Shown here one piece after another: positions 1 through 14,914 of a stretch of DNA of 22,452 nucleotides. The notes below the pieces were generated by a model, which worked only from the letters and a program-made list of their open reading frames with translations, was not told the origin of the DNA and made no database searches. Position numbers and translations under genes: made by a program. Numbering within the stretch: position 1 is the stretch's first letter; each line of letters opens with the position of its first letter. The stretch comes from a virus. The stretch is from IMG/VR virus record IMGVR_UViG_3300050123_000189, positions 1 through 22,452 of that record. One strand, given 5' to 3'.

Positions 1-114
1 TATAATTATAATGAAGTCGTCGCATATTTTATCTTGTATCTTTAGATATGCGTTGACAACTTTCAAATAGCAGAAATTGAAATATACTTTGAACAGTATG
101 AACGCTTTATATGA
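1..114 (+). pseudogene. C-terminal remnant of a degraded gene
   Basis: Read from base 1, the plus strand gives a coding-like stretch with one internal TAG (bases 43-45). The second half reads VDNFQIAEIEIYFEQYERFI and ends at TGA (112-114). The charged and aromatic composition looks like a real protein tail. It has no start inside the window and carries an in-frame stop, so I read it as the decayed 3' end of a gene that begins off the left edge. The family is not recognised. It sits next to another decayed gene, so this margin looks like eroded accessory DNA. Confidence is low because the stretch is short. Confidence 0.3.
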
Positions 115-175
115 GTTTTTTTACATATTATTATTAGAAAATAATAATTCAAATAATCTATTGGAGGATTAATTT

Positions 176-544
176 ATGGATTTGAGTTATTGTGCAATTA
201 ATATTTATGAGCATCTAAAAATAAAGTACATGGTTATTTAAAGCCAGAAATTGTTTCGATTTCAATTATGCAATCTGATGAAACAGTTTGGTTAGAAACT
301 ATTGAAATTGAAATGGTTGAAGGCTTTGAAAAGAAACTGTTAGAAGGATAGACTTAAATTTTATAACTAATGATGAAGAGGATGAAAATTTGCTTTTTGA
401 TTTAAAAGTTTCAATAGAAAAAATACCAAAATATTTATTGAAGAATTCTCTCCAGTTTCTATTATTAATACTACTGAATTATTTAACGATAATGCTTGTG
501 AAAAAATAAGCAAAATATATAATATTTTCGGAATAGATAAGTGA
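176..544 (+). pseudogene. frameshifted small gene, about 120 codons originally
   Basis: A ribosome binding site (TTGGAGGATTAATTT) precedes ATG 176, but the frame closes after about 21 codons. Coding sense continues in the other plus frames: frame of 176 to about 225, then the frame ending at TAG 349-351 (segment KVHGYLKPEIVSISIMQSDE), then the frame from 351 (DLNFITNDEEDENLLFDLKV), then the frame from 434 (FIEEFSPVSIINTTELFNDN) ending at TGA 542-544. Three single-base shifts join these into one acidic soluble protein of about 120 residues. No family is recognised. The intact RBS and the regular tail suggest recent inactivation. Sequencing error is possible but would need three independent errors in 350 bases. 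Confidence 0.6.
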
Positions 545-606
545 TTGTCTGTGATAAACTTGAAATACAAAGCAACTAAAATACCACATATTTAGGAGGT
601 TTTATA

Positions 607-1674
607 ATGGGTGGTAAGTTTGAATGGCAGAAATTCAAGGATGTGGATTTGAACGATGACTTTTTCACATCACTGAAAGAGGATTATAATGAGTTTCCTG
701 TTTGGTTTAAGAAAAAGAGCGATTCAGAAGAACATGCTCTAGTTTTTAATGATGAACAAGGGGTAGGTTCGTTTGTCTATTTGAAAAGAGAAAATGAGAT
801 AATTGAACTACAGGATAAAACCTTACCAGCCACACCTCGTGTGAAAATTGGAACGTTAAGACTAGCAGAAAGGTTTAGAGGCATGAGGCTTGGAGAGGGT
901 GCTTTGGGTGTTTCTCTTTGGAAATGGAGAGATGAAAAAGCTGAGGATATCTACGTGACTGTCTTTGAAAAGCATATAGAACTTATAAACCTCTTTGAGC
1001 GGTTTGGCTTGAAATGCGTTGGTATGAATAAACGAGGCGAGCGCGTATATTTAAAGAGCCGCAACAATATTGATTATAGTAATCCTTATAAAGCTTTTCC
1101 TTTTATTCGAAATGACTTCATCAAGGCAGGATTAATACCTATATTTGAGAGATTTCATGATAGGCTGTTTCCTTATTCGGAACTTACCGGAAGGAAGCGT
1201 GATATAGAAGAGCAAACTGCGGGTAACGGAGTTACTAAGGTTTACGTCGGGACACCATACACAGCGATGCATTATGAAGTTGGAGAACCGGTTGGAATCT
1301 ATCGTATATATGAAGGGGACACTGGCAAAACATATAAATCAGCAGTGACATCCTATTGCACTATAACCAAAATGGATATAATACGTGACAACGGAAGAGA
1401 TAATATTAGCCTTGAAGATTTTGTTAAAAACGCTGGAAACAAAACAGTTTTTACTCCTGAGGAATTGACAAGTATCTATGCACAAAGAAATGTTGTAATG
1501 CTAGAATTAGTTTATAACGGTTTCTTTGGTAAAGGTCATAATGTAAATCATAAGAATTTAAATGATCAAGGTTTATTTACTACTCATCCTTATAACTTGG
1601 ATTATACAAAAGAACAATTTGTAAAAATATTAGGAATGGGTGATGTCGATGTGCAAAATGTTATTATCAATTAA
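607..1674 (+). CDS. GNAT-like acetyltransferase with an unassigned, possibly PUA-like, C-terminal domain
   Basis: The product has 355 residues. ATG 607 follows a clear AGGAGG site. Residues 80-140 look like a GNAT core: a beta strand (VKIGTLRLAERF), a pyrophosphate-loop-like R-G-M-R-L-G-E-G (91-98) that would hold acetyl-CoA, and the LINLFERFGLKCVG segment (126-139) typical of the last GNAT helix and strand. Residues from about 205 to the end are a separate domain with VGEPVGIYRIYEGDTGKTYK (about 225-245) and a late strand-rich part, which resembles PUA-fold (ASCH/EVE-like) domains; this is inference. The gene overlaps the ASCH gene behind it by about 30 bases, so the two are probably translationally coupled and act together. 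The substrate is unknown. An RNA or modified-nucleotide target would fit two PUA-like domains. Confidence 0.7.
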   Translation: MGGKFEWQKFKDVDLNDDFFTSLKEDYNEFPVWFKKKSDSEEHALVFNDEQGVGSFVYLKRENEIIELQDKTLPATPRVKIGTLRLAERFRGMRLGEGALGVSLWKWRDEKAEDIYVTVFEKHIELINLFERFGLKCVGMNKRGERVYLKSRNNIDYSNPYKAFPFIRNDFIKAGLIPIFERFHDRLFPYSELTGRKRDIEEQTAGNGVTKVYVGTPYTAMHYEVGEPVGIYRIYEGDTGKTYKSAVTSYCTITKMDIIRDNGRDNISLEDFVKNAGNKTVFTPEELTSIYAQRNVVMLELVYNGFFGKGHNVNHKNLNDQGLFTTHPYNLDYTKEQFVKILGMGDVDVQNVIIN

Positions 1675-2017
1675 TCCCGAACACGTGGATAACATAATGA
1701 GTGGTATCAAAAAATATGAATTCAGAAAAGTTCTGTGTAAAGCTGGGGTTGATAAAATTGTTATTTATTCCACTTCACCTATTATGCGTGTTGTCGGGGA
1801 AGCAGAGGTTTTGGGCGTAATAGTAGATTCACCCAACAAAGTATGGCAATTAACGGCTGAATTTTCTGGCATAACCAAAGGCTTTTTTGATTCATATTTT
1901 CAAAGCAAAGAAAAAGCCGTAGCATATAAGCTTGGCAAGGTGAAAAGATACAAAAAACCGCTAACACTTGCTGATATCGGAATAAGCTTTGCACCACAGT
2001 CCTTTATTTATATTTAA
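1643..2017 (+). CDS. ASCH-domain protein
   Basis: This is a protein of about 124 residues. The N-terminus has the ASCH signature LLSINPEHVDNIMSGIKKYE followed by FRK, then a strand with IVIYSTSPIMRVVGEAEVLG. ASCH domains have a PUA-like fold, and characterised members act on RNA or modified nucleosides. Three starts are possible: GTG 1640, ATG 1643 and ATG 1649. I chose ATG 1643 because AGGA at 1632-1635 lies 7 bases upstream; ATG 1649 would match the usual short lead-in of the family better. The start lies inside the upstream acetyltransferase gene, and a strong terminator follows 10 bases after the stop, so the two genes form one closed transcription unit. Confidence 0.85.
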   Translation: MSMCKMLLSINPEHVDNIMSGIKKYEFRKVLCKAGVDKIVIYSTSPIMRVVGEAEVLGVIVDSPNKVWQLTAEFSGITKGFFDSYFQSKEKAVAYKLGKVKRYKKPLTLADIGISFAPQSFIYI

Positions 2018-2027
2018 AACATTGAAA

Positions 2028-2061
2028 CAGATCATAGAATTTAACTATGATCTGCTTTTTT
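2028..2061 (+). terminator. intrinsic terminator of the GNAT-ASCH unit
   Basis: A perfect 10-bp stem, CAGATCATAG (2028-2037) with CTATGATCTG (2045-2054), closes a 7-base loop and is followed by CTTTTTT. It lies 10 bases after the ASCH stop codon. Confidence 0.92.
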
Positions 2062-2248
2062 GATGCTTTTTAATAGCTATTCAACATTGGGCAATGTCCA
2101 AAAGAATTAAAACAACTTCCAATTTATTAAAAAGCAATTCTTTGATAATATTTTTTTTGAGTAATAATATGATTTGTTCTTATTTATCAGTAAAAAATAT
2201 TCAAACCCTTTATTATTAACATAAAATTAAATTTTTAATCAAAATATA
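2062..2248. other. AT-rich intergenic stretch without a gene
   Basis: This interval contains only short, stop-riddled frames on both strands. It has long A and T runs and no recognisable RNA gene. It separates the GNAT-ASCH unit from the Com-like gene and may hold upstream elements of the promoter at 2249. Confidence 0.5.
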
Positions 2249-2276
2249 TTGACAAATTTAATTTTTGTGATAAAAT
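2249..2276 (+). promoter_or_regulatory. probable sigma-A promoter for the Com-like gene
   Basis: A consensus -35 TTGACA (2249-2254) is followed by a 16-base AT-rich spacer and TAAAAT (2271-2276). Transcription would start near 2283 and give a leader of about 185 bases that includes the long hairpin at 2337-2438. Confidence 0.6.
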
Positions 2277-2336
2277 AATATTACCTTTAGAAGAAATATT
2301 TGCTAAAGATATTTATTTGATAAAGTGAATTATCGC

Positions 2337-2446
2337 AAAACCTATATACATATGCAAACAAAAAAGAGATTCTAAGAATTATAAGTGAAATTTTTCGCTA
2401 TAATTCTGCTCATTTGTTTATATATGCATATAGGTTTTTTATTTTG
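2337..2446 (+). promoter_or_regulatory. long near-palindromic leader hairpin with U-tract
   Basis: The outer arms are 2337-2362 and 2413-2438 (for example ACCTATAT with ATATAGGT). They pair over about 26 positions with two mismatches and one wobble. Inside, a second stem pairs AGAATTATA (2375-2383) with TATAATTCT (2399-2407) and extends with GTGAAA/TTTCGC after a bulged A. The right arm runs into TTTTTTATTTTG (2435-2446). The Com-like gene's RBS starts only about 10 bases later. In RNA this would be a rod of about 100 nt resembling an intrinsic terminator placed inside a leader, so attenuation is plausible. A short mobile palindrome (MITE-like) is the alternative. Confidence 0.6.
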
Positions 2447-2469
2447 TCTAAATTTAAGGAGGAATGACT

Positions 2470-2793
2470 ATGGTAAAAGAAGAAATAAGATGTAAGCACA
2501 GTCAAAGGATTTTCGATGTTTATGATGGTTCGCATTTAAACATCAGAATCAAATGTAACAATCGCAAATGCAAATATAAATCCATCTGTGAAAAAGAAGA
2601 GTCGATTTGCATTGGTCAGTTTGATAATTTACCGGCACTTAAATATATTCCTCGGAAATGTCCTGTCTGTGGACGCATAGTCTTTGATGCATCAACAAAC
2701 AGCTTCGGAAAGGTAGAAATTAAATGTACCCACTGTAATCAAATCGTTAACATACTAATCGGCGATGCTAAAAAACCCGCTTCTGCGGCATAA
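2470..2793 (+). CDS. Com-like double zinc-ribbon protein
   Basis: The product has 107 residues. I start at ATG 2470, which lies 7 bases after AAGGAGG (2456-2462); ATG 2464 is only one base from that site. The C-terminal half carries C64-P-V-C67 and C86-T-H-C89 with the spacing and hydrophobic pattern of phage Mu Com (IRCKNCNK..IEIRCPRCKRHI). The N-terminal half is a diverged copy (IRCK at 6-9, RIKC at 26-29, C34, C40, C47). Mu Com is an RNA-binding translational activator of the DNA-modification gene mom; that function is only a suggestion here. The gene stands alone between a long leader hairpin and a terminator, directly upstream of the structured leader of the sigma-like gene. Zinc binding is likely. 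The real target is unknown. Confidence 0.72.
   Translation: MVKEEIRCKHSQRIFDVYDGSHLNIRIKCNNRKCKYKSICEKEESICIGQFDNLPALKYIPRKCPVCGRIVFDASTNSFGKVEIKCTHCNQIVNILIGDAKKPASAA
2777..2788 (-). terminator. possible minus-strand terminator in the 3' end of the Com-like gene
   Basis: CCGC TTCT GCGG is preceded by a run of A on the plus strand (2770-2775). Read on the minus strand this is a short GC-rich hairpin followed by a T run. No minus-strand gene that it would serve was found, so it may reflect only the coding sequence. Confidence 0.3.
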
Positions 2794-2856
2794 CATTGAG
2801 AACATATTTCTTTTACTGAGCAATCTGAGCATAGGAAAAATCCTATAGCTACTAAG

Positions 2857-2896
2857 CGCCAGACAAGAACTTAACGGTTTTTGTTTGGCGTTTTTT
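2857..2896 (+). terminator. intrinsic terminator after the Com-like gene
   Basis: CGCCAGACAA (2857-2866) pairs with TTGTTTGGCG (2881-2890) with one wobble, and TTTTTT follows (2891-2896). A smaller hairpin, ATAGGA AAAA TCCTAT (2831-2846), stands just before it. Confidence 0.85.
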
Positions 2897-2923
2897 CATT
2901 TTTATAAAACTAAATAAATCATA

Positions 2924-3062
2924 CCGAGCAACGGAGTCGAATGTGAACTACCAAATAGCCGGATGAGTTACTAAACGAAAGTTTGTAATTTGTCCGGCTG
3001 TTTTGCGTTTAGTAACCATTCGGCTCTTTTTTTGTTTGCACGACTCCTCTCGGATAACGAGA
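2924..3062 (+). promoter_or_regulatory. structured two-state leader RNA with an intrinsic terminator
   Basis: Outer stems pair CCGAG (2924-2928) with CTCGG (3049-3053), GGAGTCG (2933-2939) with CGACTCC (3041-3047), and TGTGAAC (2942-2948) with GTTTGCA (3034-3040). Inside, the segment 2957-2977 has two possible partners. It can fold locally: AGCCGGA (2957-2963) with TCCGGCT (2993-2999), plus TTAC and AAAC pairing with GTTT and GTAA around a GAAA tetraloop. Alternatively GTTACTAAACG (2967-2977) pairs perfectly with CGTTTAGTAAC (3006-3016), extended by AGCCGGATG with CATTCGGCT, followed by CTTTTTTTG (3026-3034), which is an intrinsic terminator. TCTCG (3048-3052) can also pair with CGAGA (3058-3062) beside the RBS. 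Attenuation of the sigma-like gene is inferred; no known riboswitch class was recognised. Confidence 0.65.
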
Positions 3063-3076
3063 AGGAGATAACAAAA

Positions 3077-3505
3077 ATGGATTGGTATATAAGAATCGGC
3101 AAAGAGCTAGTACCTGTAACCGAAGAGGTTCACAAAGAGTATTACAAAATGGCAAGGCGTGAACGGTATATGGAAAATGATATCAAAGTTGGGCGCATTG
3201 AAATAAAGAACGAAAAACCCACATTTATATCAAGCAAAGAGGACTCTATGCAGCGTTTAATGGAGTTAGGTGCTGATTTTGAAGATGAGATTTCTTTAGA
3301 AGATATTATTTGTGATAAAGCCACGCTTGTTATTTTACAGCAAGCAATGGCAGAGTTGAACCAACAAGAACAGGAGCTTATACAAGCTATCTATTATAGA
3401 AATCTTACTACAAGAGAAATATCAGAACAAGAAAATGTATGCCAAACCACAATTGTTAAAAGACATAAAAAGGCGTTGGAAAAGCTAAAAAAATATTTTT
3501 TATAA
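3077..3505 (+). CDS. sigma-70-like regulatory protein (region 4 HTH)
   Basis: The product has 142 residues. The frame is open from 2990, but AAGGAGAT at 3062-3069 is correctly spaced only for ATG 3077, which gives MDWYIRIGKELVPVTEEVHK. The N-terminal part is a charged linker common to small sigma-like proteins of Firmicute phages and conjugative elements. Residues from about 85 to 140 form a region-4-like helix-turn-helix (LNQQEQELIQAIYYRNLTTR, then EISEQENVCQTTIVKRHKKA). Sigma region 2 is missing, so it probably acts as an accessory or partial sigma factor at early phage promoters. Its mRNA leader contains the two-state terminator described upstream, so its synthesis is probably controlled by premature termination. 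Confidence 0.8.
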   Translation: MDWYIRIGKELVPVTEEVHKEYYKMARRERYMENDIKVGRIEIKNEKPTFISSKEDSMQRLMELGADFEDEISLEDIICDKATLVILQQAMAELNQQEQELIQAIYYRNLTTREISEQENVCQTTIVKRHKKALEKLKKYFL

Positions 3506-3584
3506 AATCGGTGTTCAACCCACCCTCCCCATTGGCTAGTAAGTGAAGGGATTAATTCTCTATCAGAAAAGAGGAGGTAACCGA

Positions 3585-3764
3585 ATGAATCACAAAGTAA
3601 AAGTTGTTGGCCAAGATATGCAAGAAGAAATGGTTGGTGTGCTCACGGCTATAAGCATTGTTTCAAAAAGGCTTGCTGCAAGAATATCACAGCTTGATGA
3701 AAACAATGATGAAGATCAAAAAAACAAAAGTAAGTCACCACCTGGGAGCGAGGTGAAAACCTAG
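3585..3764 (+). CDS. small phage hypothetical protein
   Basis: The product has 59 residues, starting MNHKVKVVGQDMQEEMVGVL. GAGGAGGT at 3571-3578 is 6 bases before ATG 3585, so the longer open frame from 3543 is not used. The middle is an amphipathic helix (MVGVLTAISIVSKRLAARIS) and the tail is polar and probably disordered. The stop TAG shares its G with the GTG start of the next gene (TAGTG), indicating translational coupling. No function is known. Similar short proteins lie ahead of the replication genes in many Firmicute prophages. Confidence 0.65.
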   Translation: MNHKVKVVGQDMQEEMVGVLTAISIVSKRLAARISQLDENNDEDQKNKSKSPPGSEVKT

Positions 3765-4123
3765 TGAAACTAATTTTTATTTGCTCACCTTTTTCCGGTG
3801 ACATAGAGCGAAACACAGCAAAGGCAGCGAATTATTGCAGATTTGCATACAGCAAGAACGTAGTCCCATTCGCACCACATTTACACAATCTCCGGTTTCT
3901 TGATGAGAGCATATCTGATGAGAGAAATGATGGAATTAAGCTTGGAATTGAAATATTAGCAAAAGCAGATGAACTGTGGTGCTTTGGTGAAAAGTTTACT
4001 GAGGGTATGCAAGTAGAACTTAGATATGCAATTGAACATGACATACCAATTAAGTATTTTAACAGGATATGTGAGGAGGTAAAACCCTATGAGCAAAATT
4101 ATACTGACACTTGCAGTTGTTGA
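3764..4123 (+). CDS. DUF4406/DUF7768 nucleoside-deoxyribosyltransferase-like protein
   Basis: The product has 119 residues and a GTG start at 3764; GAGGTG (3750-3755) lies 8 bases upstream. The sequence begins MKLIFICSPFSGDIERNTAK and continues with VPFAPHL, FLDES, a DELWCFG strand (about 70-76) and a GMQVELRYA helix. This pattern is seen in the nucleoside 2-deoxyribosyltransferase-like fold of DUF4406-type phage proteins: an S-P-F/Y loop, a bound nucleotide site and the late G-M-x-x-E motif whose Glu corresponds to the catalytic one in the superfamily. It may act on nucleosides or nucleotides during phage growth; the substrate is not known. The 3' end overlaps the next gene by 35 bases. Confidence 0.78.
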   Translation: MKLIFICSPFSGDIERNTAKAANYCRFAYSKNVVPFAPHLHNLRFLDESISDERNDGIKLGIEILAKADELWCFGEKFTEGMQVELRYAIEHDIPIKYFNRICEEVKPYEQNYTDTCSC

Positions 4124-4385
4124 AGATTTAAGAACCCTAGCTAATAGCGTGGAGGCACTTGCCAATGCAATTCAAGAAAATGGATTACCTGAAGCGCCCA
4201 CGTCAAAGGGTTCAAAGTCTGTACCATTAACCCTTGAACAAGTCCGAGCGGTTTTAGCTGCAAAATCCCAAAACGGTAAACAACCAGAGGTCAAGTCTCT
4301 CATTACAGAGTTTGGAGCAACAAAACTCACGGATATTGATCCATCAAAGTATGAGGAACTTCTGAAAAAAGCGGGTGAAATTTGA
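4089..4385 (+). CDS. phage hypothetical protein with conserved C-terminal helical domain
   Basis: The product has 98 residues. GAGGAGGT (4073-4080) is 8 bases before ATG 4089. The N-terminal half is a helix (VEDLRTLANSVEALANAIQE) and a Pro/Ser-rich linker follows. The C-terminal part (TLEQVRAVLAAKSQNGKQPE, then VKSLITEFGATKLTDIDPSKYEE in parts) is a small helical module I recognise from many phage proteins, sometimes mislabelled in databases as an rRNA biogenesis protein. It begins inside the preceding gene and its TGA overlaps the ATG of the DUF2800 gene, so it belongs to the same operon. A link to replication or recombination is suggested only by position. Confidence 0.72.
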   Translation: MSKIILTLAVVEDLRTLANSVEALANAIQENGLPEAPTSKGSKSVPLTLEQVRAVLAAKSQNGKQPEVKSLITEFGATKLTDIDPSKYEELLKKAGEI

Positions 4386-5521
4386 TGTCTGACCACGCAT
4401 TACTCTCCGCTTCCAGTTCTCATAAATGGCTACATTGTACTCCGTCGGCTAGGCTTGAGGAGCAATTTGAAAACACCACTAGCGTGTATGCATCCGAGGG
4501 TACTGCTGCTCATGCACTTGCCGAACATAAACTGAGGTCATATTTGGATATTAAAAGTAAAAAACCCGTAAGTGAGTTTGATGGTGAAGATCTTGAATAT
4601 TATACAGATGTTTATGTGGATTATGCCTTTGAGCAAATCCAGAACGTAAGGCAAAGTTGCAAAGACCCTATAGTCTTAATCGAGCAAAAACTGGATTATT
4701 CACATTATGTTCCCGAGGGTTATGGTACAGGTGACCTTGTAATTGTAGCTGATGACACACTTGATATAGTTGATCTCAAATTTGGTAAAGGTGTGGCAGT
4801 ATCTGCCGAGGATAACCCTCAGATGAAACTATATGCACTAGGTGCATTGGCACTGTTTGATAGCCTTTATGATATTAAAACAGTCCGTATGACTATAGTG
4901 CAGCCAAGGCTTGAGAGTATCTCGACCTGTGAAATTGCCAATCAAGAACTAACTAGGTGGGCAGTAACAGAATTAAAACCTAAAGCTCAGCTTGCCATTA
5001 ATGGTGAAGGCGATTTTTGCTCAGGTGAACATTGCAGATTTTGCAGAGCAAGGCACACTTGCCGGGCAAGAGCCGAGGAACATTTGGCACTGGCACAATA
5101 TGACTTTAAACTACCTGCACTGCTTTCCAATGACGAAATCGCAGAAATATTGACAGTTGCTGATAGGCTTTCCACTTGGGCGAGTAATGTTTATTCATAT
5201 GCTACTGATTTAGCAATAAATGAAGGCAAAGAATGGACGGGGTTTAAACTCGTTAAAGGTCGCAGCAATCGCAAATACACAGATGAAGCCACAGTAATTA
5301 AGGTCTGTACTGAAAATGGCTACTCAGACATTTACAAGCAGTCACTCAAAGGTATTACTGATATGGAGAAGATGCTTGGTAAAAAACAGTTTAACACGAT
5401 TCTTGGTAACTTGGTAGAAAAGCCGCAGGGCAAGCCGGCCCTCGTTCCAATTACTGATAAAAGGCAAACTATCACATTAAATAATACGGCTATAGCCGAT
5501 TTTAAGAAAGATGAGGATTAA
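4385..5521 (+). CDS. DUF2800 protein, Cas4/RecB-like PD-(D/E)XK nuclease
   Basis: The product has 378 residues. ATG 4385 overlaps the preceding stop (TGATG). The N-terminus LSASSSHKWLHCTPSARLEE and SEGTAAHALAEH match the opening motifs of the RecB/Cas4 nuclease family. The active-site series is present: D117 in GTGDLVIV and D130-L-K132 in IVDLKFGKG, followed by a conserved Q-M-K-L-Y-A-L helix. Cys212, Cys217, Cys220 and Cys226 lie close together (FCSGEHCRFCRARHTC); Cas4-like enzymes use four cysteines for an iron-sulfur cluster, and these may serve here. The gene is immediately followed by the DUF2815 gene, the usual pair in Firmicute phages. A role in end-processing during phage replication or recombination is likely but inferred. 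Confidence 0.88.
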   Translation: MSDHALLSASSSHKWLHCTPSARLEEQFENTTSVYASEGTAAHALAEHKLRSYLDIKSKKPVSEFDGEDLEYYTDVYVDYAFEQIQNVRQSCKDPIVLIEQKLDYSHYVPEGYGTGDLVIVADDTLDIVDLKFGKGVAVSAEDNPQMKLYALGALALFDSLYDIKTVRMTIVQPRLESISTCEIANQELTRWAVTELKPKAQLAINGEGDFCSGEHCRFCRARHTCRARAEEHLALAQYDFKLPALLSNDEIAEILTVADRLSTWASNVYSYATDLAINEGKEWTGFKLVKGRSNRKYTDEATVIKVCTENGYSDIYKQSLKGITDMEKMLGKKQFNTILGNLVEKPQGKPALVPITDKRQTITLNNTAIADFKKDED

Positions 5522-5525
5522 TATT

Positions 5526-6065
5526 ATGGAAAACAACAAAACAAAAGTGGTAACTGGTAAGGTTCGTTTCAGCTATGCAAACATTTGGGAACCTAAATCA
5601 ATCAATGGCGGTGATGAGAAGTATGGCGTTTCTCTTATCATCCCAAAGGCAGATGCAAAGGCACTTGCTGAAATAAAGGCTGCTATTGAAACTGCAAAGC
5701 AAGACGGTAAGGCAAAGTTTGGTGGCAAAATACCTTCTAACTTAAAACTTCCACTTCGTGATGGTGATGTTGACCGTCCCGATGATGACGCATACAAAAA
5801 CAGCTACTTTATTAATGCAAACAGCAAAGACAGGCCCCAGGTAGTAGATAAAAATGTGAAACCTATTTTAGACCCAAATGAAGTGTATAGTGGTTGTTTT
5901 GGTAGAGCTTCGATTACATTTTATGCCTTTAATCAGAACGGAAATAAGGGTATAGCTTGTGGATTGCAGAATTTGCAGAAGCTTACTGACGGTGAACCAC
6001 TGAGCGGTCGCAGCAGAGCAGAAGATGACTTCACAACTGCTGATGACGATGATTTCTTATCATAA
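5526..6065 (+). CDS. DUF2815 single-stranded-DNA-binding-like protein
   Basis: The product has 179 residues. I start at ATG 5526, 8 bases after GAGGA; the in-frame ATG 5511 lies inside the DUF2800 gene and lacks an RBS. The protein opens with KVVTGKVRFSYANIWEPKSI and contains KYGVSLIIPKAD, the hallmark of DUF2815, an OB-fold family grouped with T7 gp2.5-type SSBs. The C-terminus is strongly acidic (EDDFTTADDDDFLS), as in SSBs that recruit partners through an acidic tail. It sits between the Cas4-like nuclease and the polymerase and shares one base with the polymerase start (TAATG). It probably coats single strands during phage DNA synthesis. Confidence 0.87.
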   Translation: MENNKTKVVTGKVRFSYANIWEPKSINGGDEKYGVSLIIPKADAKALAEIKAAIETAKQDGKAKFGGKIPSNLKLPLRDGDVDRPDDDAYKNSYFINANSKDRPQVVDKNVKPILDPNEVYSGCFGRASITFYAFNQNGNKGIACGLQNLQKLTDGEPLSGRSRAEDDFTTADDDDFLS

Positions 6066-8002
6066 TGAGAACGCTTGGAATTGATATTGAGACCTATAGT
6101 AGTGTTGATTTAGTTAAGTCGGGGGTATATGCGTATACCTCCGCCCCTGACTTTGATATTCTGCTGTTCGCATACGCTTTTGATGATGAATTGATAAAAA
6201 TTGTAGATTTAGCAAGCGGAGAGCAGCTTCCATGTGAAATACTCAATGCATTAACAGATAATTACATTATTAAGACAGCATTTAACGCGAACTTTGAAAG
6301 AACGTGTCTTTCTAAATATTTGAAACAGCAGTTTTTTTCTGTCTCATGGCAGTGTACTGCGGTGCAATCGGCAATGCTTGGACTTCCACTCTCCCTTGAT
6401 GGAGTCGGTCGAGTTTTAGGACTTGAGCAACAGAAAATGAAGGAAGGCAAAGATTTAATTCGATATTTTTGTGTACCTTGCAAGCCTAATAAAACAAACG
6501 GTGAACGAACTAGGAACTTACCGCATCATGCTCCAGATAAATGGGAAATATTCAAAACCTATTGTAAACGTGATGTTGAAGTTGAGCGACACATTAGAAA
6601 CAAACTTTTGAAATATCCTATCAGCAAAAACGAACAGATAATATATATCCTTGATCAGCAGATAAATGATAAGGGTGTTCTTGTTGATATGCAACTGGTA
6701 GCAAAAGCGATTGACTGTGACAAGTTACACAAGATTGATAACATATCAGAGGCTCGAAGGCTTACAGGACTTGACAATCCTAACAGCGTAGCACAACTCA
6801 AAGCGTGGCTGCTTGAAAATGGTGTAAAAGTGGATTCATTATCTAAAAAAGCTGTTGCTGACCTTGCAAAAGAATCCGACGGTGAGGTTGAACAGCTTCT
6901 TAACCTAAGGCTACAGCTGGCTAAAACCTCAATCAAAAAATATGAAGCAATGGAACGGTCGGTATGTCCTGATGGAAGAGTTAGAGGCCTGTTTCAGTTT
7001 TATGGTGCAAATAGAACCGGAAGATGGGCAGGGCGTTTGGTACAGGTGCAAAATCTCCCACAAAATCATCTTGCCGACTTGGAACTTGCAAGAAATCTAG
7101 TAAAACAAGGTTGCTTTGATACACTGGTACTTTTATTTGATAATGTACCAAATGTTTTATCTGAAATTATCCGCACTACATTTATCCCTAAACCCAACCA
7201 CAGATTTATTGTATCAGACTTTTCTGCTATTGAAGCAAGGGTTATAGCTTGGCTTGCTGGTGAAAAGTGGCGCATGGACGTGTTTGCAACTCATGGAAAA
7301 ATATATGAAGCATCTGCAAGCCAAATGTTTAAAGTGCCGATTGAAGAAATAACAAAAGGCTCACAACTAAGACAGAAAGGTAAAATAGCAGAACTTGCTC
7401 TTGGATACGGTGGCTCTGTTGGAGCACTTACAGCTATGGGTGCACTTGATATGGGTGTAGCTGAAGAAGAACTTCATTCACTTGTAGCAGCATGGAGGCA
7501 GGCAAATCCAAATATTACAAAGTTGTGGTGGAATATTGATAAAGCTGCAATTAAGGCAGTAAAGGAAAGAACTGCTGAAATAGTTGGTAGAATAAAAATC
7601 TATTATGAAAGTGGTATCTTATTTATCACTTTACCTAGCGGACGTGAGCTTTCATACATTAAGCCAAGAATTGAGCTAAATAAATTCGGTCGTGAAGGTA
7701 TTACCTATGAGGGTATTGGAGTCACAAAAAAGTGGGAACGCATAGATACCTACGGGCCTAAGCTTGTAGAAAATATTGTTCAGGCAACCGCAAGGGATTT
7801 ATTGGCTGATGCTATGGTCAATGTAGCAAATAAAGGTTATGAAATAGTGATGCATTGCCATGATGAAATTATTGCTGAAGTCCCTTTGGGTTTTGGCTCA
7901 GTTGAAGAAATGTCAAATATAATGGCTTTGCCAACTGCTTGGTCTGAAGGACTCCCGCTACGTGCAGATGGATTCGAGTGTTCGTATTACAGGAAGGACT
8001 AA
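6065..8002 (+). CDS. phage family A DNA polymerase with 3'-5' exonuclease
   Basis: The product has 645 residues and lacks the 5' nuclease domain of bacterial Pol I, as is usual for phage enzymes. The proofreading domain shows D7-I-E9 (Exo I), TAFNANFER (Exo II) and Y166-C-K-R-D170 (Exo III). The polymerase domain shows NRTGRWAGRLVQVQNLPQ, motif A D385-F-S-A-I-E-A-R392, motif B R436-Q-K-G-K440 with LGYGG, and motif C H599-D600-E601. All catalytic carboxylates are in place. In motif A the usual DYS(Q/G)IE reads DFSAIE, a common phage variant. It is coupled to the SSB-like gene by a one-base overlap and is the core of the replication module. Confidence 0.96.
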   Translation: MRTLGIDIETYSSVDLVKSGVYAYTSAPDFDILLFAYAFDDELIKIVDLASGEQLPCEILNALTDNYIIKTAFNANFERTCLSKYLKQQFFSVSWQCTAVQSAMLGLPLSLDGVGRVLGLEQQKMKEGKDLIRYFCVPCKPNKTNGERTRNLPHHAPDKWEIFKTYCKRDVEVERHIRNKLLKYPISKNEQIIYILDQQINDKGVLVDMQLVAKAIDCDKLHKIDNISEARRLTGLDNPNSVAQLKAWLLENGVKVDSLSKKAVADLAKESDGEVEQLLNLRLQLAKTSIKKYEAMERSVCPDGRVRGLFQFYGANRTGRWAGRLVQVQNLPQNHLADLELARNLVKQGCFDTLVLLFDNVPNVLSEIIRTTFIPKPNHRFIVSDFSAIEARVIAWLAGEKWRMDVFATHGKIYEASASQMFKVPIEEITKGSQLRQKGKIAELALGYGGSVGALTAMGALDMGVAEEELHSLVAAWRQANPNITKLWWNIDKAAIKAVKERTAEIVGRIKIYYESGILFITLPSGRELSYIKPRIELNKFGREGITYEGIGVTKKWERIDTYGPKLVENIVQATARDLLADAMVNVANKGYEIVMHCHDEIIAEVPLGFGSVEEMSNIMALPTAWSEGLPLRADGFECSYYRKD

Positions 8003-8005
8003 CAT

Positions 8006-8185
8006 ATGAGAAGAATAAGCTATTTTAACAGTGAAGGGTATTCAGATCCTACCGCATACCAAGCTTTAAAAAATATCATCAAAAAGGAAGGCGTAGAACA
8101 TGATCATATCAGTCGCAAACTCAAGAAAAGAAAAGTTATGGAAAAGCATAGAGATGACGTGGGAAGATTTTCTGAAAAGGGTTAG
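8006..8185 (+). CDS. small conserved phage protein following the polymerase
   Basis: The product has 59 residues: MRRISYFNSEGYSDPTAYQA, then a basic tail (SRKLKKRKVMEKHRDDVGRF). The EGY-x-DPTAY motif is one I know from small proteins between polymerase and primase-helicase genes in Firmicute phages; in some relatives it leads into a DUF4406-like protein. ATG 8006 is only four bases after the polymerase stop, with AGGAAGGA upstream at 7991-7998. The last 86 bases overlap the primase-helicase gene in another frame, which is long for an overlap, so the true stop or the start of the next gene could differ. Function unknown. Confidence 0.6.
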   Translation: MRRISYFNSEGYSDPTAYQALKNIIKKEGVEHDHISRKLKKRKVMEKHRDDVGRFSEKG

Positions 8186-10499
8186 TTTAACTCATAAAAC
8201 TGCCGAGAGTGTTGACGAATACAAGAAACTGCCCAAGCCTAAACAGGATGACATCAAGGATGTGGGTGGATTTGTAGGTGGTAAATTAAAAGATGGCAAA
8301 CGTAAAACTGGCAATGTTGAATTCCGCTCGATTTTAACGCTTGATATGGACTATGCATCTGAAAGCATATGGGAACAAATCACTATGCTTTTTGACTTTA
8401 CTTGCTGTATCTATTCTACCCACAAGCATATACCCGAAAAACCAAGGTTCAGATTAATAATTCCACTATCAAGAACCATTACAGCAGATGAATATTCAGC
8501 AATTGCAAGAATGGTGGCCTCCGACATAGGCATTGAAATGTTTGATGATACTACGTATGAGCCTTCAAGACTTATGTATTGGCCATCTACATCCAGTGAT
8601 GGAGAGTTTGTTTTTGAGAAACAGGACAGTGTGTTTTTAGACCCTAGTATTGTGCTTTCAAGGTATAAGAACTGGCACGATACAAGTGAGTGGCCTATTT
8701 CATCAAGGCAGACAAGCATTGTAAAACACAACCTCAAAGCACAAGCCGATCCACTTGAAAAGGACGGGATTGTTGGGGCGTTTTGTAGGTCATATAGCAT
8801 CGAACTTGCAATCGAAAAATTCCTCGCGCATATTTATGCGCCTAGTATACTGTCTGAAAGGTACGACTATATTCCTGCCGACTCAACTGCCGGTGTCCTT
8901 ATTTATGATAACAAATTTGCATATTCACATCATGCAACAGATTCTGCTTGCGGAAAGCTTTGCAATGCCTTTGATTTGGTGCGAATTCATAAGTTTGGTG
9001 AACTGGATACAAAAGTTGATGAGGACACTCTCCCTTCAAAGTTACCATCATATAAGGCAATGCAAGAAATATGTGTTAAAGATGAAGCTGTAAAAAAGCA
9101 ACTGGCCATTGAAAGGCAAGCTCAAGCTACTAACGATTTTAATGTTACTGAGGATAAAGATTGGCAGATAAAACTAGATGTCGGTAAAAATGGTGAGGTA
9201 ATAAATAATCTTAAAAACCTCATTATTATACTTGAAAATGATTCAAAATTGAAACCCATTGTATTTAATCAGTTAAGTGATGGAATGGAGATTAAATCAG
9301 AGAGCCTCTGCGGCATTGAAATTCCATGGAAACACCCTAATAAATTTTGGCGAGATGCTGATGATGCACAGCTGATGTCATATATAGACTTGACCTATGG
9401 TAACTTTTCAGCAAGAAATTATGACATTGCAGTCACCAAGGTTACCGATGACAGATCTTATCATCCCATCCATGAGTTTATTGATAGCTTGCCGAAATGG
9501 GATTGGACAAAGCGCGTAGATACACTCCTTGCGGATTATCTTGGTGCTACAGACAGTAAATATGTTCGTGCAGTTACCCGTAAAACCCTGTGTGCTGCAA
9601 TATCCCGTGTGCTAAACCCTGGTTGCAAATTTGATTCTATGTTAGTTCTTAACGGTCCCCAAGGTGGCGGTAAAAGTACATTCATTGCAAAACTTGGTGG
9701 CGAGTGGTTTTCCGACAGCCTAAGCCTATCTGATACCAAGGACAAAACTGCTGCTGAAAAGCTGCAAGGCTACTGGATTTTGGAGATTGGTGAGCTTGCC
9801 GGACTGAAAAAAGCCGAGGTGGAAACCCTCCGCAGTTTTCTCTCTCGACAAAATGATATATATAGAGCCAGTTTCGGAAAACGCGCCACTCCCCATTTAA
9901 GACAGTGCGTTTTCTTTGGCACAACCAATGCGGAAAAAGGATACCTCCGTGACACCACGGGAAATCGCCGCTTTTGGCCTGTTAGAACACCAGGAGGTGG
10001 AGAAAAAATGTCGTGGCAGCTGACGCATGAGGATGTTTTGCAAATATGGGCAGAAGTTCTTGTATATGTTGAAGCAGGCGAAAAACTCTACCTTGATAAT
10101 TCAATGGAACAACTAGCAAGGACCGAACAACGTGAAGCTATGGAATCTGACGAGCGTGAAGGCTTGGTTCGAGATTACCTTGAAACACTGCTTCCTACAG
10201 AATGGCCAAAAATGGATTTGTATGAGCGTCGTGCCTTCTTCTCCGGCAGTGAATTTGGTGAGAGCAGCCGAGTTGGAACAGTTAAACGTACATCCATTTC
10301 CAATATGGAAATATGGTGCGAGTGCCTTGGTAAGGACAAGACTGCTCTCAAGCGAACCGACAGTAACGAACTGTCTGCCATTATTGCACGTATTGGTGGT
10401 TGGAGCGCACTGGTGAAAAAGGAACGAATTCCAATCTACGGTCAACAGTGGCTTTATGTTCCAAAGGATGTTACAAGAGATGATTCCAGTAACAGTTAA
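8100..10499 (+). CDS. primase-helicase, VapE/D5-like with AEP-like N-terminus
   Basis: The product has 799 residues. The N-terminal region resembles an archaeo-eukaryotic-type primase: D82-M-D84 in LTLDMDYAS, H108 in YSTHKHIPEKPRFRLIIPL, and PSRLMYWPS. The C-terminal half is the VapE (PF05272-type) P-loop ATPase: Walker A G519-P-Q-G-G-G-K525-S-T, Walker B ILEIGEL (560-566), sensor FFGTTN, and arginine motif G621-N-R-R-F-W-P. It should prime synthesis and unwind the template for the phage polymerase encoded upstream. ATG 8100 is supported by AAGGAAGG 8-15 bases before it, inside the small preceding gene. The fused primase-helicase, polymerase and SSB together suggest replication largely independent of the host primosome. 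Confidence 0.92.
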   Translation: MIISVANSRKEKLWKSIEMTWEDFLKRVSLTHKTAESVDEYKKLPKPKQDDIKDVGGFVGGKLKDGKRKTGNVEFRSILTLDMDYASESIWEQITMLFDFTCCIYSTHKHIPEKPRFRLIIPLSRTITADEYSAIARMVASDIGIEMFDDTTYEPSRLMYWPSTSSDGEFVFEKQDSVFLDPSIVLSRYKNWHDTSEWPISSRQTSIVKHNLKAQADPLEKDGIVGAFCRSYSIELAIEKFLAHIYAPSILSERYDYIPADSTAGVLIYDNKFAYSHHATDSACGKLCNAFDLVRIHKFGELDTKVDEDTLPSKLPSYKAMQEICVKDEAVKKQLAIERQAQATNDFNVTEDKDWQIKLDVGKNGEVINNLKNLIIILENDSKLKPIVFNQLSDGMEIKSESLCGIEIPWKHPNKFWRDADDAQLMSYIDLTYGNFSARNYDIAVTKVTDDRSYHPIHEFIDSLPKWDWTKRVDTLLADYLGATDSKYVRAVTRKTLCAAISRVLNPGCKFDSMLVLNGPQGGGKSTFIAKLGGEWFSDSLSLSDTKDKTAAEKLQGYWILEIGELAGLKKAEVETLRSFLSRQNDIYRASFGKRATPHLRQCVFFGTTNAEKGYLRDTTGNRRFWPVRTPGGGEKMSWQLTHEDVLQIWAEVLVYVEAGEKLYLDNSMEQLARTEQREAMESDEREGLVRDYLETLLPTEWPKMDLYERRAFFSGSEFGESSRVGTVKRTSISNMEIWCECLGKDKTALKRTDSNELSAIIARIGGWSALVKKERIPIYGQQWLYVPKDVTRDDSSNS

Positions 10500-10506
10500 G
10501 TAGTCC

Positions 10507-10721
10507 GTAACAAAATTCGCCTGTTCCAACGATACAAAATTCAAGCCTTGGAACACCCCTTGGAACAGGCGGTAGCTCCTTATGTACCAGTTAATTTCAC
10601 AACTTTGTTACTGGTGTTACAAGACTTTTATAATAAATATAATTCTATCTCTTTATATAGTAGTAATACCCGCAAACGCACGATTGCGCGCGCATAAGAC
10701 TTTTTGGTTCTTGGTAACAAA
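10507..10721 (+). repeat. cluster of dyad and direct repeats after the primase-helicase gene
   Basis: GCCTGTTCCAA (10519-10529) is the exact inverse of TTGGAACAGGC (10560-10570). CCTTGGAAC occurs twice directly, at 10546-10554 and 10558-10566. GTAACAAA occurs at 10507-10514 and 10714-10721, and inverted (TTTGTTAC) at 10604-10611. The interval has no open frame of note. It may be a regulatory or origin-like site inside the replication module, or a hairpin affecting mRNA stability; there is no poly-T after the main stem, so it is not a standard terminator. Confidence 0.5.
10605..10634 (+). promoter_or_regulatory. possible sigma-A promoter for the VRR-NUC/helicase genes
   Basis: TTGTTA (10605-10610), an 18-base spacer and a perfect TATAAT (10629-10634). 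The -35 is weak, and read-through from upstream genes is also likely. Confidence 0.35.
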
Positions 10722-10739
10722 GCAAAAGGAGATAAATAT

Positions 10740-11021
10740 ATGAGAGAAACAACTATTGAGGGGTCACTTGTCAAAGCAGTCAAAGGCATGGGTGGTCTTG
10801 CACTGAAGTTTACATCACCAAGTTTTGATGGAGTGCCTGACCGCTTGGTGCTCTTTCCTCATGGAAAGGCTTGCTTTATAGAACTTAAAGCACCAGGCAA
10901 AACAATACGTCCTCTGCAAGAAAAGCGTAAAAGGCAATTTGAAGAATTAGGGTTTAAAGTTTATTGCATAGATAAAAAAGAACAGATTGGAGGTGTACTT
11001 GATGAAATTGAAAAAGGATGA
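10740..11021 (+). CDS. VRR-NUC domain nuclease
   Basis: The product has 93 residues. ATG 10740 follows AAAAGGAGAT with good spacing; an upstream in-frame start at 10704 lacks a site. The VRR-NUC core is complete: E7 in the first helix, P33-D34 in GVPDRLVLFP, E48-L-K50 in FIELKAPG and Q60 in RPLQ. Stand-alone VRR-NUC proteins of phages are PD-(D/E)XK nucleases, with structure-specific activity shown for some. The gene overlaps the helicase gene by 20 bases, a pairing often seen in Firmicute prophages, which suggests a joint role in resolving or processing branched replication intermediates. Confidence 0.93.
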   Translation: MRETTIEGSLVKAVKGMGGLALKFTSPSFDGVPDRLVLFPHGKACFIELKAPGKTIRPLQEKRKRQFEELGFKVYCIDKKEQIGGVLDEIEKG

Positions 11022-12375
11022 TATGCATGAGTATCAAAATTACTGTACTGAAAAGATAATAGAAAATCCTGCATTTGCTCTTTTGCTTGATATGGGACTT
11101 GGAAAAAGTGTTATTACACTAACTGCAATATGGCTTTTGCTTTTTGACTATTTTGAAATATCAAAGGTGCTTGTAATTGCACCACTTCGAGTGGCTCAAG
11201 ATACTTGGAGCAGAGAATGTGAAAAATGGGAGCATTTAAGTGGTCTCAGAATTTCTAAAGTATTAGGAACAGAAAAAGAAAGAAGAGCAGGCTTGATGCG
11301 AAAAGCTGATCTGTATATCATAAATCGTGAAAATGTAGAGTGGCTTGTAAAGTTCCTTATCGATAACAAAATAAATATGTTTGACATGGTGGTCGTTGAT
11401 GAACTTTCAAGTTTTAAATCACATACTGCTAAAAGATTTAAGGCGCTTAGAAAATTGAGACCAAGTTTTAAAAGGATAGTAGGACTTACCGGTACTCCTG
11501 CTCCAAACAGCCTGCTTGATTTATGGAGTGAAATAAATCTCCTTGATATGGGTGAAAGGCTCGGTCGATTTATCGGTAATTACAGAAATGAGTATTTTAC
11601 ACCGGATAAACGCAATCAACAAGTCATATTCAGCTATAAACCAAGAGAAGGTGCAGAGGCATTAATTTATAAAAGAATTTCTGATATCTGTGTCAGCATG
11701 AAGGCCTGTGATTATCTGCATATGCCGGAGAGAATTGACAACAACGTAGAAGTTCAGATGTCAGAAAACGAGTATGCCTTATACCAAAAGTTAGAAAGTG
11801 AAATGTTATTACCGTTTGCCGATGGTGATATAGATGCAGTAAATGCAGCAGCACTTTCAAACAAATTATTACAGATGGCAAATGGTGCAGTTTATGATGA
11901 ATTCAAGGCAGTGAAGACAATTCACAGCAAAAAGCTTGATGCTTTGGAGGATTTAATTGAATCGGCTAACGGAAAACCTGTACTTATCTTTTATGCATAT
12001 AAGCACGACAAGTCAAGAATATCAGAAAAATTTAAGGTGACTGAAATCTTAACAATCGAGGATATTTCAAAGTGGAATAATGGTGAAATACCAATAGCAA
12101 TTGCACACCCCGCATCTACAGGACACGGTTTAAACTTACAAGCAGGTGGTTCGACGGTTATTTGGTTTGGATTAACCTGGAGTTTGGAATTATACCAACA
12201 AGCAAATGCAAGGTTATGGCGACAAGGTCAAAAGGATACAGTTGTAATTCATCATATTATTGCCAAAGGCACGATTGATGAAGACGTTTTAAAAGCTTTG
12301 AGCAACAAGGAAAACACACAAATCGCTTTGATTGAAGCAGTGAAAGCGAGGATTGGGGGCGTAATGCATGACTAA
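11002..12375 (+). CDS. SNF2-type DEAD-like helicase/ATPase
   Basis: The product has 457 residues from ATG 11002, which lies 7 bases after GGAGGT (10989-10994). ATG 11023, preceded by AAAGGATGAT, is a possible alternative. Superfamily 2 motifs appear in order: HEYQ near the start (Q-like), Walker A LLLDMGLGKS with K35, motif Ia VLVIAPLRVAQDTW, motif II VVVDELSSFKS (DELS in place of DEXH), motif III GLTGTPAPNSLLDLW, motif V STGHGLNLQAGG and motif VI QANARLWRQGQ. It is half the length of chromatin-type SNF2 proteins, which is normal for phage members. It should move along or remodel duplex DNA, probably with the VRR-NUC nuclease. Confidence 0.93.
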   Translation: MKLKKDDMHEYQNYCTEKIIENPAFALLLDMGLGKSVITLTAIWLLLFDYFEISKVLVIAPLRVAQDTWSRECEKWEHLSGLRISKVLGTEKERRAGLMRKADLYIINRENVEWLVKFLIDNKINMFDMVVVDELSSFKSHTAKRFKALRKLRPSFKRIVGLTGTPAPNSLLDLWSEINLLDMGERLGRFIGNYRNEYFTPDKRNQQVIFSYKPREGAEALIYKRISDICVSMKACDYLHMPERIDNNVEVQMSENEYALYQKLESEMLLPFADGDIDAVNAAALSNKLLQMANGAVYDEFKAVKTIHSKKLDALEDLIESANGKPVLIFYAYKHDKSRISEKFKVTEILTIEDISKWNNGEIPIAIAHPASTGHGLNLQAGGSTVIWFGLTWSLELYQQANARLWRQGQKDTVVIHHIIAKGTIDEDVLKALSNKENTQIALIEAVKARIGGVMHD

Positions 12376-12766
12376 ACAGGAATTATCACAGCTTTATTAC
12401 TTGAATAGAGAAATCGAGGAATTAAAACACAGAATTGCAGAACTTGAGTGGGCTGCCACTTCTACTAATTCAACAATAACCGGAATGCCTCATGTAAGTG
12501 GTGCTACAGATAAGATTGGTAAATATGCAGCAGAGATTGCAGATTTAAAAGAACTGCTGGAGCTTAATCTGAAAAAATGCTTTTATGAACTTAATCGGTT
12601 GAACCGGTACATAGAAAGCGTTGAGGATGCGCAAATGCGGTTGATTTTAAGTTTGAGATATGTTAATGGTTTGAGCTGGCAGCAGATAGCGTTTAGCATT
12701 GGTGAACATGATGAGCAGTATCCAAGGAGAAAGCATAATAAATTTTTGAGTAATAATAAAACTTGA
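12368..12766 (+). CDS. DUF1492/ArpU-like late transcription regulator
   Basis: The product has 132 residues and overlaps the helicase by 8 bases. The N-terminus is a long coiled coil (ELSQLYYLNREIEELKHRIA). The C-terminal part is a sigma region-4-like helix-turn-helix (VEDAQMRLILSLRYVNGLSW, then QQIAFSIGEHDEQYPRR). Proteins of this size and layout at the end of the replication module switch on late genes in Firmicute phages (ArpU/RinA/Xpf-like group). The last four bases fall in the first copy of a 34-bp promoter-like element, so this protein may act on DNA at its own 3' end and at the second copy in front of the HNH gene. That regulation is inference. Confidence 0.8.
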   Translation: MTKQELSQLYYLNREIEELKHRIAELEWAATSTNSTITGMPHVSGATDKIGKYAAEIADLKELLELNLKKCFYELNRLNRYIESVEDAQMRLILSLRYVNGLSWQQIAFSIGEHDEQYPRRKHNKFLSNNKT

Positions 12767-12796
12767 CGAAAATGATGAATTGCCTGTTCTAAAATA
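12763..12796 (+). promoter_or_regulatory. late-promoter-like element, copy 1
   Basis: TTGACG is followed by AAAATGATGAATTG, six bases and CTAAAATA (TAAAAT 12790-12795). It matches copy 2 at 13928-13961 at 29 of 34 positions. GACGAAAAT-GATGAATT is a 9-bp tandem half-site just upstream of a -10-like hexamer. The distance from TTGACG to TAAAAT (21 bp) is too long for plain sigma-A, which suggests an activator-dependent promoter. Confidence 0.5.
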
Positions 12797-12861
12797 GGAT
12801 TATTAAAAAAAGAGTAAAAAGGATACCACTGTAAAGGGCTCACTTTAACTGCTTGTTAAGA

Positions 12862-14584: not shown

Positions 14585-14914
14585 ATGATAAACAGTGATA
14601 AAGATAAAATACGGCAACTTAGGCTCGAAGGTATTGGATATAAAGGGATTGCGGCTAGTCTTGGTATCAGTCGCGACAGTGTTCGCAGTTTTTGCAAACA
14701 TAACGGTCTTGAGGGCAATTCATCTGTCGTTTCTTTAAACTATCAAGAAAACAAAAACCGCAATAAGATTTGCACCAATTGTGGTAAGCCTTTAAAGCAG
14801 AAAAGACTGGGGCGCAATAAACGTTTTTGCAGTGACAAGTGCAGGCATAGTTGGTGGCACTCATTTTCACAAATAAAAATACAGTTTCTGAAAGGCGAAG
14901 AAGATGGAGTTTAA
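14585..14914 (+). CDS. HTH plus zinc-ribbon regulatory protein
   Basis: The product has 109 residues. GGAG at 14572-14575 is 9 bases before ATG 14585. Residues 5-42 form a sigma-like or resolvase-like helix-turn-helix (KIRQLRLEGIGYKGIAASLG, then ISRDSVRSFCKHNGL). Residues 60-90 form a zinc ribbon with C63-T-N-C66 and C82-S-D-K-C86 (KICTNCGKPL, RFCSDKCRHSWW). Similar HTH-zinc proteins stand ahead of DNA methyltransferase genes in Firmicute phages and conjugative elements. The gene overlaps the ParB-methyltransferase start by 11 bases. It may regulate the modification genes; that is inferred. Confidence 0.75.
   Translation: MINSDKDKIRQLRLEGIGYKGIAASLGISRDSVRSFCKHNGLEGNSSVVSLNYQENKNRNKICTNCGKPLKQKRLGRNKRFCSDKCRHSWWHSFSQIKIQFLKGEEDGV

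Follow-up and report, generated by a model that had tools for sequence, protein, structure and literature searches.

Mu Com binds the mom mRNA near a hairpin that masks the start and activates translation (PMC6483171). The leader analysed here lies in a 22-kb viral fragment (22,452 nucleotides, referred to below as the window) and resembles the Com/mom system in several respects. In both cases a small Zn-ribbon protein with four cysteines, judged here also by the PHROG matches of its relatives, is encoded directly upstream of the target RNA, and the leader of this RNA contains a hairpin that masks the Shine-Dalgarno sequence (SD) or the start. The mom target GAAUGCCUGCGAGCAUCCCACGGAG (PMC6483171) and the conserved core of the leader, CCGAGCAACGGAG, both contain CGAGCA and ACGGAG, which we regard as a lead and not as a test. 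In contrast to the mom mRNA, the leader described here is equipped with intrinsic terminators and a predicted antiterminator, and the genes downstream of it are sigma-like, HTH or primase-like, the mom gene being absent. The published Com motif, CC(N)2-3GAG located in the loop of a hairpin, was not found in the core, which contains CCGAG (spacing 0) in a paired strand (P0, see below) and not in a loop. Since the motif spacing and the target gene differ, we do not file this leader as a Com/mom system.

The similarity to lambda N/nut concerns the logic only, namely that a small protein, the first product of the same RNA, would let the polymerase run past terminators and on into the following genes. 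The candidate protein is, however, a Zn-ribbon and not N-like, and the switch would rely on mutually exclusive RNA pairings at terminators close by. The RAT/BglG, PyrR and TRAP leaders share with the leader in question a terminator and an antiterminator that are mutually exclusive, the antiterminator overlapping the 5′ arm of the terminator. They differ from it in the RNA core, of which one copy would disarm two terminators here, and in the additional features of the present leader: an SD lock, a phage-encoded Zn-ribbon as the candidate effector, and the lack of an Rfam match. Riboswitches with transcriptional platforms are similar in the presence of a compact conserved core, in a terminator competing with it for one strand, and in the occurrence of tandem copies, but the genes controlled here suggest no ligand, and the core appears to co-evolve with a protein gene.

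Exclusive pairings in the leader

All features of the leader are encoded on the plus strand. The minimum free energy (MFE) of the segment 2920-3062 is -56.2 kcal/mol, as compared to -31.2 ± 3.6 kcal/mol for shuffled sequences (z -6.97), and none of the 200 dinucleotide shuffles was equally stable. The upstream part of the leader contains two nested helices that are predicted to form the antiterminator. The 5′ strand of the outer one, P0 (2920-2929; CAU-a-CCG-a-GC, with two bulged A, at 2923 and 2927), pairs with the switch segment GCCGGAUG (2958-2965) and in this way encloses the hairpin P1 (2933-2952; GGAGUC...GaACUaCC), in which the bulged A at 2950 is conserved. In its general form the core can be written as UACCGAGCAAC-[GGAGY...RCUaCC]-AAAUR-GCCGGAUG. 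The first terminator, T1 (2957-3004), is a hairpin with a GAAA loop, formed by 2957-2976 (AGCCGGATGAGTTACTAAAC) and 2981-2999 and followed by GTTTT; in nearly all members it has the form RGCCGGAU...AUCCGGCY with a T-rich tail, and the base of its 5′ arm is the 3′ strand of P0. The second terminator, T2 (3006-3033), recognized by MFE folding and swap tests, consists of a 3′ arm (3006-3026) and TTTTTTT (3027-3033). In one of its two forms, which is the MFE fold, this arm pairs with the 5′ strand and loop of P1 (2934-2943), enclosing T1, and in the other it pairs through 3006-3025 with the 5′ arm of T1 (2957-2976) in a 20-bp stem. Further downstream, the anti-SD segment CGACUCCU (3041-3048) can pair with 2933-2939, and a hairpin within 3041-3067, formed by 3044-3052 with 3058-3067, covers the SD AAGGAG (3062-3067). 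The 5′ strand of P1 is a hub, being a partner both for T2 and for the anti-SD segment.

As the 3′ strand of P0 is the base of the 5′ arm of T1, P0 and T1 are mutually exclusive. P0 occupies the 5′ arm of T1, and P1 occupies the strand that T2 needs, so that a single fold would disarm both terminators.

An earlier sequence-only reading of the window had covered the terminator half of the leader and interpreted it as a two-state attenuator or riboswitch-like control built around the local GAAA hairpin. All the pairings that it described, i.e., the local hairpin, the long alternative stem, an outer pairing, and a hairpin beside the ribosome-binding site, could be found in the letters, the outer one as two blocks (2924-2928/3049-3053 and 2933-2939/3041-3047). 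The competition between pairings was confirmed and is co-maintained in homologues, which supports control of the proposed kind. The assignment of states was not upheld: the local hairpin is the terminator T1, and the antiterminator is predicted to be P0/P1. The latter was absent from the earlier reading, as were a divergent copy of the element at 2809-2893 and the gene of the Com-like Zn-ribbon at 2464-2793.

Covariation in homologues had been named in that reading as a check. In the case of P0/P1, 97.4% of the alignment cells are paired (53 distinct sequences), and the covariation score is 0.165, as compared to 0.078 ± 0.007 for shuffles and to at most 0.047 when the pairing is slid. The alignment pair 5-51 is AU in 42 cases, GC in 4, CG in 3, GU in 2, and UG in 1, with one exception, while the pair 21-34 of P1, with its Y/R covariation, is CG in 25 and UA in 24. 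Compensatory changes in P1 occur in five divergent members; stems such as GGCAC/GUGaCC, GGCAA/UUGaCC, GGAAC/GUUaCC, and GAAGU/ACUaUC keep the bulged A. A divergent compensatory form of P0, CCUaGC/GCAGG, is also present. The base pairs of T1 are complete (8/8) in 68 of the 70 elements, with a mean of 6-7 T within the next 9 nt. T2 is found in roughly half of the members, the window among them, and the T run of T1 is shorter in this class (3.9 vs. 6.1, the automatic class rule misassigning a few members).

Competing pairings were evaluated by swap tests, in which the duplex energy of each leader's own two strands is compared to that of permuted partners, the permutation ignoring kinship. The z values obtained were -7.2 for T1, -5.4 for P0, -6.3 for the T2 3′ arm with the P1 strand, -10.0 for the same arm with the T1 5′ arm, -5.1 for the SD hairpin, which is co-maintained in the two-terminator class, and -4.7 for the P1 strand with the anti-SD segment. 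Control strand pairs of the same sequences gave +1.4, +1.1, and -0.9, i.e., null values. Both competing pairings are thus supported in homologues, and at the level of sequence comparison P0, P1, T1, T2, the alternative long pairing, and the SD hairpin are each backed by compensatory change or by co-maintained pairing.

When prefixes of the window were folded, those ending no later than 2992 gave P0 and P1, and those reaching 2998 or beyond gave T1, the 3′ arm of which has then emerged. The core alone folds as P0 and P1 in 57 of 67 elements. Averaged over 67 elements, the computed energies favour T1 over P0/P1 by about 12 kcal/mol, which suggests that termination would occur by default and that something must hold P0/P1. 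The interpretation of the leader as a transcription attenuator, in which terminators are opposed by a mutually exclusive antiterminator, is well supported by these comparisons.

The segment 2809-2893 is probably a second, divergent tandem copy of the element (covariance model R1, see below: 14.4 bits, E 0.015). It contains a P0-like pairing CUGaGC...GCCAG and a terminator of its own, detected by a terminator scan as a hairpin at 2854-2893 with 18 pairs and a T-rich tail. The P0 of this copy (CUGaGC/GCCAG) differs from that of the main copy by a compensatory change.

Relatives of the leader and the adjacent genes

A blastn search identified one phage record with the leader, that of a Ca. Heliusvirales phage, where it occupies the same position ahead of a sigma-like gene. 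A search pattern derived from the sequences of the window and of this phage (GAGCAACGGAG, 8-16 nt, CTACCAAAT) matches 38 IMG/VR stretches, to which looser patterns add more, and 42 genome contigs, mostly of Clostridia and Negativicutes; two of the latter (L080 and L087) are chance matches that lack the context. As patterns were used for the collection, the invariance of the pattern letters is partly imposed, and the variable columns are free of that effect. The covariance model R1, a search with which is free of the pattern-letter constraint, finds more divergent members in two classes of genomes, in 11 of 391 for one class and in 8 of 200 for the other (E <= 1e-3). One R1 match (L111) turned out to be a false positive in coding sequence without the proper context. 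The search of plasmids for the element gave no match. The possibility that the element is a repeat or mobile DNA was rejected, as it has a single copy per record in eight phage records tested and a constant position in the operon.

No family of Rfam 15, including the T-box and known riboswitches, matched at the gathering threshold either the window or the elements in 18 other loci, and relaxed Rfam scans of the element region gave chance-like matches only. RF02929, considered as a candidate for the DUF2800 RNA motif, was dropped, as it is algC. In the open-licence literature we found no description of this leader RNA. The sequence-only reading, which had recognized no known class, was right in this respect: the leader is a member of an RNA family that is absent from Rfam and occurs in IMG/VR phages and in the genomes of Clostridia and Negativicutes. 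Elements nearly identical to those of Clostridia phages were also found in contigs binned to unrelated organisms, namely, in an archaeon MAG (L064), a Bacteroidota MAG (L083), and a Desulfobulbaceae MAG (L086); these are probably misbinned phage contigs. In six loci (L034, L045, L048, L049, L066, and L067) the core with its terminator is present in two or three tandem copies per operon, L066 having three of them ahead of one operon.

The gene directly upstream of the leader in the window (2464-2793, with an ATG start at 2464 or 2470) encodes a small Zn-ribbon protein with the Com-like motif CPVCGRIVFD...VEIKCTHC, which is the candidate trans-acting factor. Its relatives match best PHROG 6417, 'translational regulator' (3e-8 and 1.7e-8), and also gpCom, phrog_13819 (3.8e-6); the protein of the window itself matches weakly, with only phrog_5602 at 8.5e-4. 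Pfam Zn_ribbon_Com is the top match of one relative, with 20.9 bits, below the cut-off of 22.9. A tblastn search of the phage collection with one Zn-ribbon protein gave no match, which leaves Mu Com reachable through profile libraries only. The protein of the window has two Com-like repeats, of which the first is degenerate, while most of its relatives have one.

By an automatic rule, a Zn-ribbon gene is directly upstream of the element in 59 of 70 cases; the exceptions include elements at the end of a contig and cases of variant cysteines, and a few elements are without a visible Zn-ribbon. Among 150 genomes of one class, eight are Zn-ribbon-positive (E <= 1e-8), and seven of these also contain the element; two Zn-ribbon loci without the leader (L151 and L153) were found as well. 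That the RNA almost always lies beside the gene of a Zn-ribbon resembling an RNA-binding regulator suggests that the pair probably acts together as a switch.

The first gene past the leader in the window (3077-3505) encodes a sigma-70 region-4-like protein (Pfam Sigma70_r4, 1.8e-10; NCBIfam sigma70-ECF, 7e-12), as the sequence-only reading had proposed. Its role as the constant partner of the switch is not upheld by the comparison. The downstream gene is variable: the sigma-region-4 proteins are only about 20% identical to one another (median of all pairs), in three loci (L037, L051, and L074) HTH_11/DeoR-like proteins are encoded instead, primase genes take this place elsewhere, and in L095 the element is followed directly by an early-operon protein. 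The Com-like Zn-ribbon, in contrast, is constant. Searches with the sigma-like protein yielded two close relatives only, in viral contigs. With unrelated proteins encoded downstream of related elements, the sigma-like protein was rejected as a constant partner.

Distance matrices of the core and of the Zn-ribbon are correlated (Mantel r 0.50, 0/2000 permutations; r 0.53, 0/5000, after the removal of doubtful ORFs), whereas those of the core and of the downstream protein are not (r -0.01 and 0.05). As the Zn-ribbon gene and the core are neighbours, co-inheritance alone would yield some correlation, but the downstream gene is about equally close and shows none. The comparison thus shows that, as far as sequence distances can tell, the core co-evolves with the upstream Zn-ribbon gene rather than with the downstream gene.

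Behind the leader, the early replication operon of the window (4382-12375, plus strand) comprises the gene of DUF2800, identified by Pfam, followed by DUF2815-like, PolA-like, primase/helicase-like, VRR-NUC-like, and SNF2-like ORFs, identified by eye. The DUF2800, DUF2815-like, PolA-like, VRR-NUC-like, and SNF2-like genes belong to the nine that make up the core of Ca. Heliusviridae, phages reported in >90% of participants (PMC9226167). The element heads the DUF2800-DUF2815-PolA early operon also in related phages, which is in agreement with the earlier suggestion that it may be the entry switch for the early genes. The operon-head position, like the exclusive pairings and their conservation, is shown by comparison of sequences.

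Proposed gating of the early operon

A candidate early promoter-like site on the plus strand (2249-2276; TTGACA-16-TAAAAT, with TG preceding the second hexamer) matches the consensus at 11 of 12 positions and has the top score of a consensus scan of 1-13000, in which promoter-like sites overall are not commoner than in shuffles. The early promoter may correspond to this site. Transcription would then probably start upstream of the Com-like Zn-ribbon gene and afterwards reach the leader, where the nascent RNA is predicted to fold first into the antiterminator, P0 with its two bulged A around P1. Unaided, T1 would displace P0, as the energies suggest, transcription would end at T1 or T2, and the replication genes would stay off. 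If the antiterminator were held, P0 would take the T1 5′ arm and P1 the T2 strand, allowing the polymerase to enter the sigma-like gene and the replication operon. The likeliest holder is the Com-like Zn-ribbon encoded just upstream, and with the Zn-ribbon in this role the switch would constitute a relay from immediate-early to early genes, similar to that of lambda N. By analogy to the action of Mu Com on the mom mRNA, the Zn-ribbon may also open the SD-masking hairpin. One consequence of the pairings counts against this explanation: the formation of P1 leaves the anti-SD segment available for masking the SD, and antitermination by itself would give no translation.

We consider it rather likely that the leader is a protein-gated transcription attenuator combined with a translational lock at the entry of the phage early operon, the Com-like Zn-ribbon being the likeliest gate. 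The Zn-ribbon would bind the core, and its binding would favour read-through and perhaps also translation. A wider proposal is more tentative, and we rate it somewhat below an even chance. It assumes a new family of phage RNA-protein pairs, in which an early Com-like Zn-ribbon would bind a bulged-A antiterminator in its own transcript, disarm two overlapping terminators, and free the ribosome site. Clostridia phages, including the relatives of Ca. Heliusvirales, would thus gain an N-like temporal switch from a local RNA rearrangement. If correct, this would explain the gating of the replication operon in widespread temperate gut phages, indicate a likely RNA target for the Com-like Zn-ribbon proteins, which are widespread but lack annotation, and broaden the known role of this family from the control of translation to the antitermination of transcription. 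The RNA itself is a family to be added to those of Rfam.

A metabolite- or ion-sensing riboswitch would have the same switch architecture and by construction needs no protein. P0/P1, with the internal loop AAC/AAAUR and a bulged A, would be the aptamer, T1, T2, and the SD hairpin the expression platform, and the Zn-ribbon gene a mere neighbour. The compact conserved core with a terminator and the tandem copies in L034, L048, L066, and L067 are in line with such a function, and a metabolite or a host protein could just as well be the ligand of the internal loop with its bulged A. Nevertheless, the divergence of the core follows the Zn-ribbon gene and not the regulated gene, the genes under control, phage regulators and replication genes, have no metabolite in common, and the element is found only with phage early operons, which makes a riboswitch improbable. 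About equally improbable is the action of the Zn-ribbon as a repressor that favours termination or SD masking in a negative feedback limiting early expression. The association data would be identical, and the P1 state does free the anti-SD segment for SD masking, but termination needs no help in view of the stability of T1 relative to P0/P1, and Mu Com is an activator (PMC6483171).

The presence of a conserved core near terminators, where an early operon begins, might also recall HK022 put-like processive antitermination, with the core acting directly on the polymerase and the hairpins being plain early terminators. We find this very unlikely: a put-like site would not need P0 to be complementary to, and to covary with, the T1 5′ arm, and each of the eight phage records tested has a single site. 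Moreover, terminator-like sites in 1-13000 are not commoner than in shuffles (10 vs. 8.7), and none of those on the plus strand inside the early operon is strong. Least credible are plain terminators insulating the Zn-ribbon gene and kept by recent descent without regulation, which would account for the strong hairpins and T tracts but not for the co-maintained exclusive upstream pairings, the conserved bulged A, and the SD hairpin, nor for the scan that found no strong promoter-like site between T2 and the operon.

Diverged leaders and other genes of the window

Among 196 genomes of another class, one (G118) has eight Zn-ribbon loci (L125 and L132-L138) without a significant R1 match. In these loci a diverged leader built on the same plan, bulged A included (UCUgGC-a-CAG-a-GC ... 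GGGAG...CUCaCC ... GCCUGGCAGA), comes after the Zn-ribbon gene, and then a terminator and a primase-like gene follow. A pattern for this diverged class is present in four more phage contigs. Among L139-L142 and the loci of G118, units of about 7.5 kb recur tandemly in one contig, the copies at L141 being 7510 bp apart and 92% identical over 1.7 kb. Each unit contains the genes of the Zn-ribbon and of a primase-like protein and the diverged leader; inspection by eye adds a capsid-like ORF and the gene of an IS110-like transposase. The units may represent a small phage or satellite arrayed in tandem. A third leader variant, located behind a divergent Zn-ribbon gene in L127 and L128, comprises a P1-like hairpin ending with CUACC, AAGCACCG, and a long terminator; an antiterminator pairing is not obvious in this variant.

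A subset of phages, L002 (1281-1390) and, in the same place, L018, L035, and L063, contain a small basic ORF that ends with ...SALSQTKPSPKKK and separates the Zn-ribbon gene from the element. GNAT-like and ASCH-domain genes (weak Pfam matches) are located upstream in the window, at 607-2017, and an ASCH-like gene recurs about 2 kb ahead of the element in relatives (upstream parts of L005 and L018). On the minus strand of the window, the region 12862-13779 encodes a protein of 305 aa in which a signal peptide and several transmembrane stretches can be seen by eye; this gene runs opposite to the early and late genes and is cargo-gene-like. Two adjoining DNA methyltransferase genes are located at 14904-18066, one of the ParB-N6/N4 type according to Pfam, and the other C5-looking, with a long middle region.
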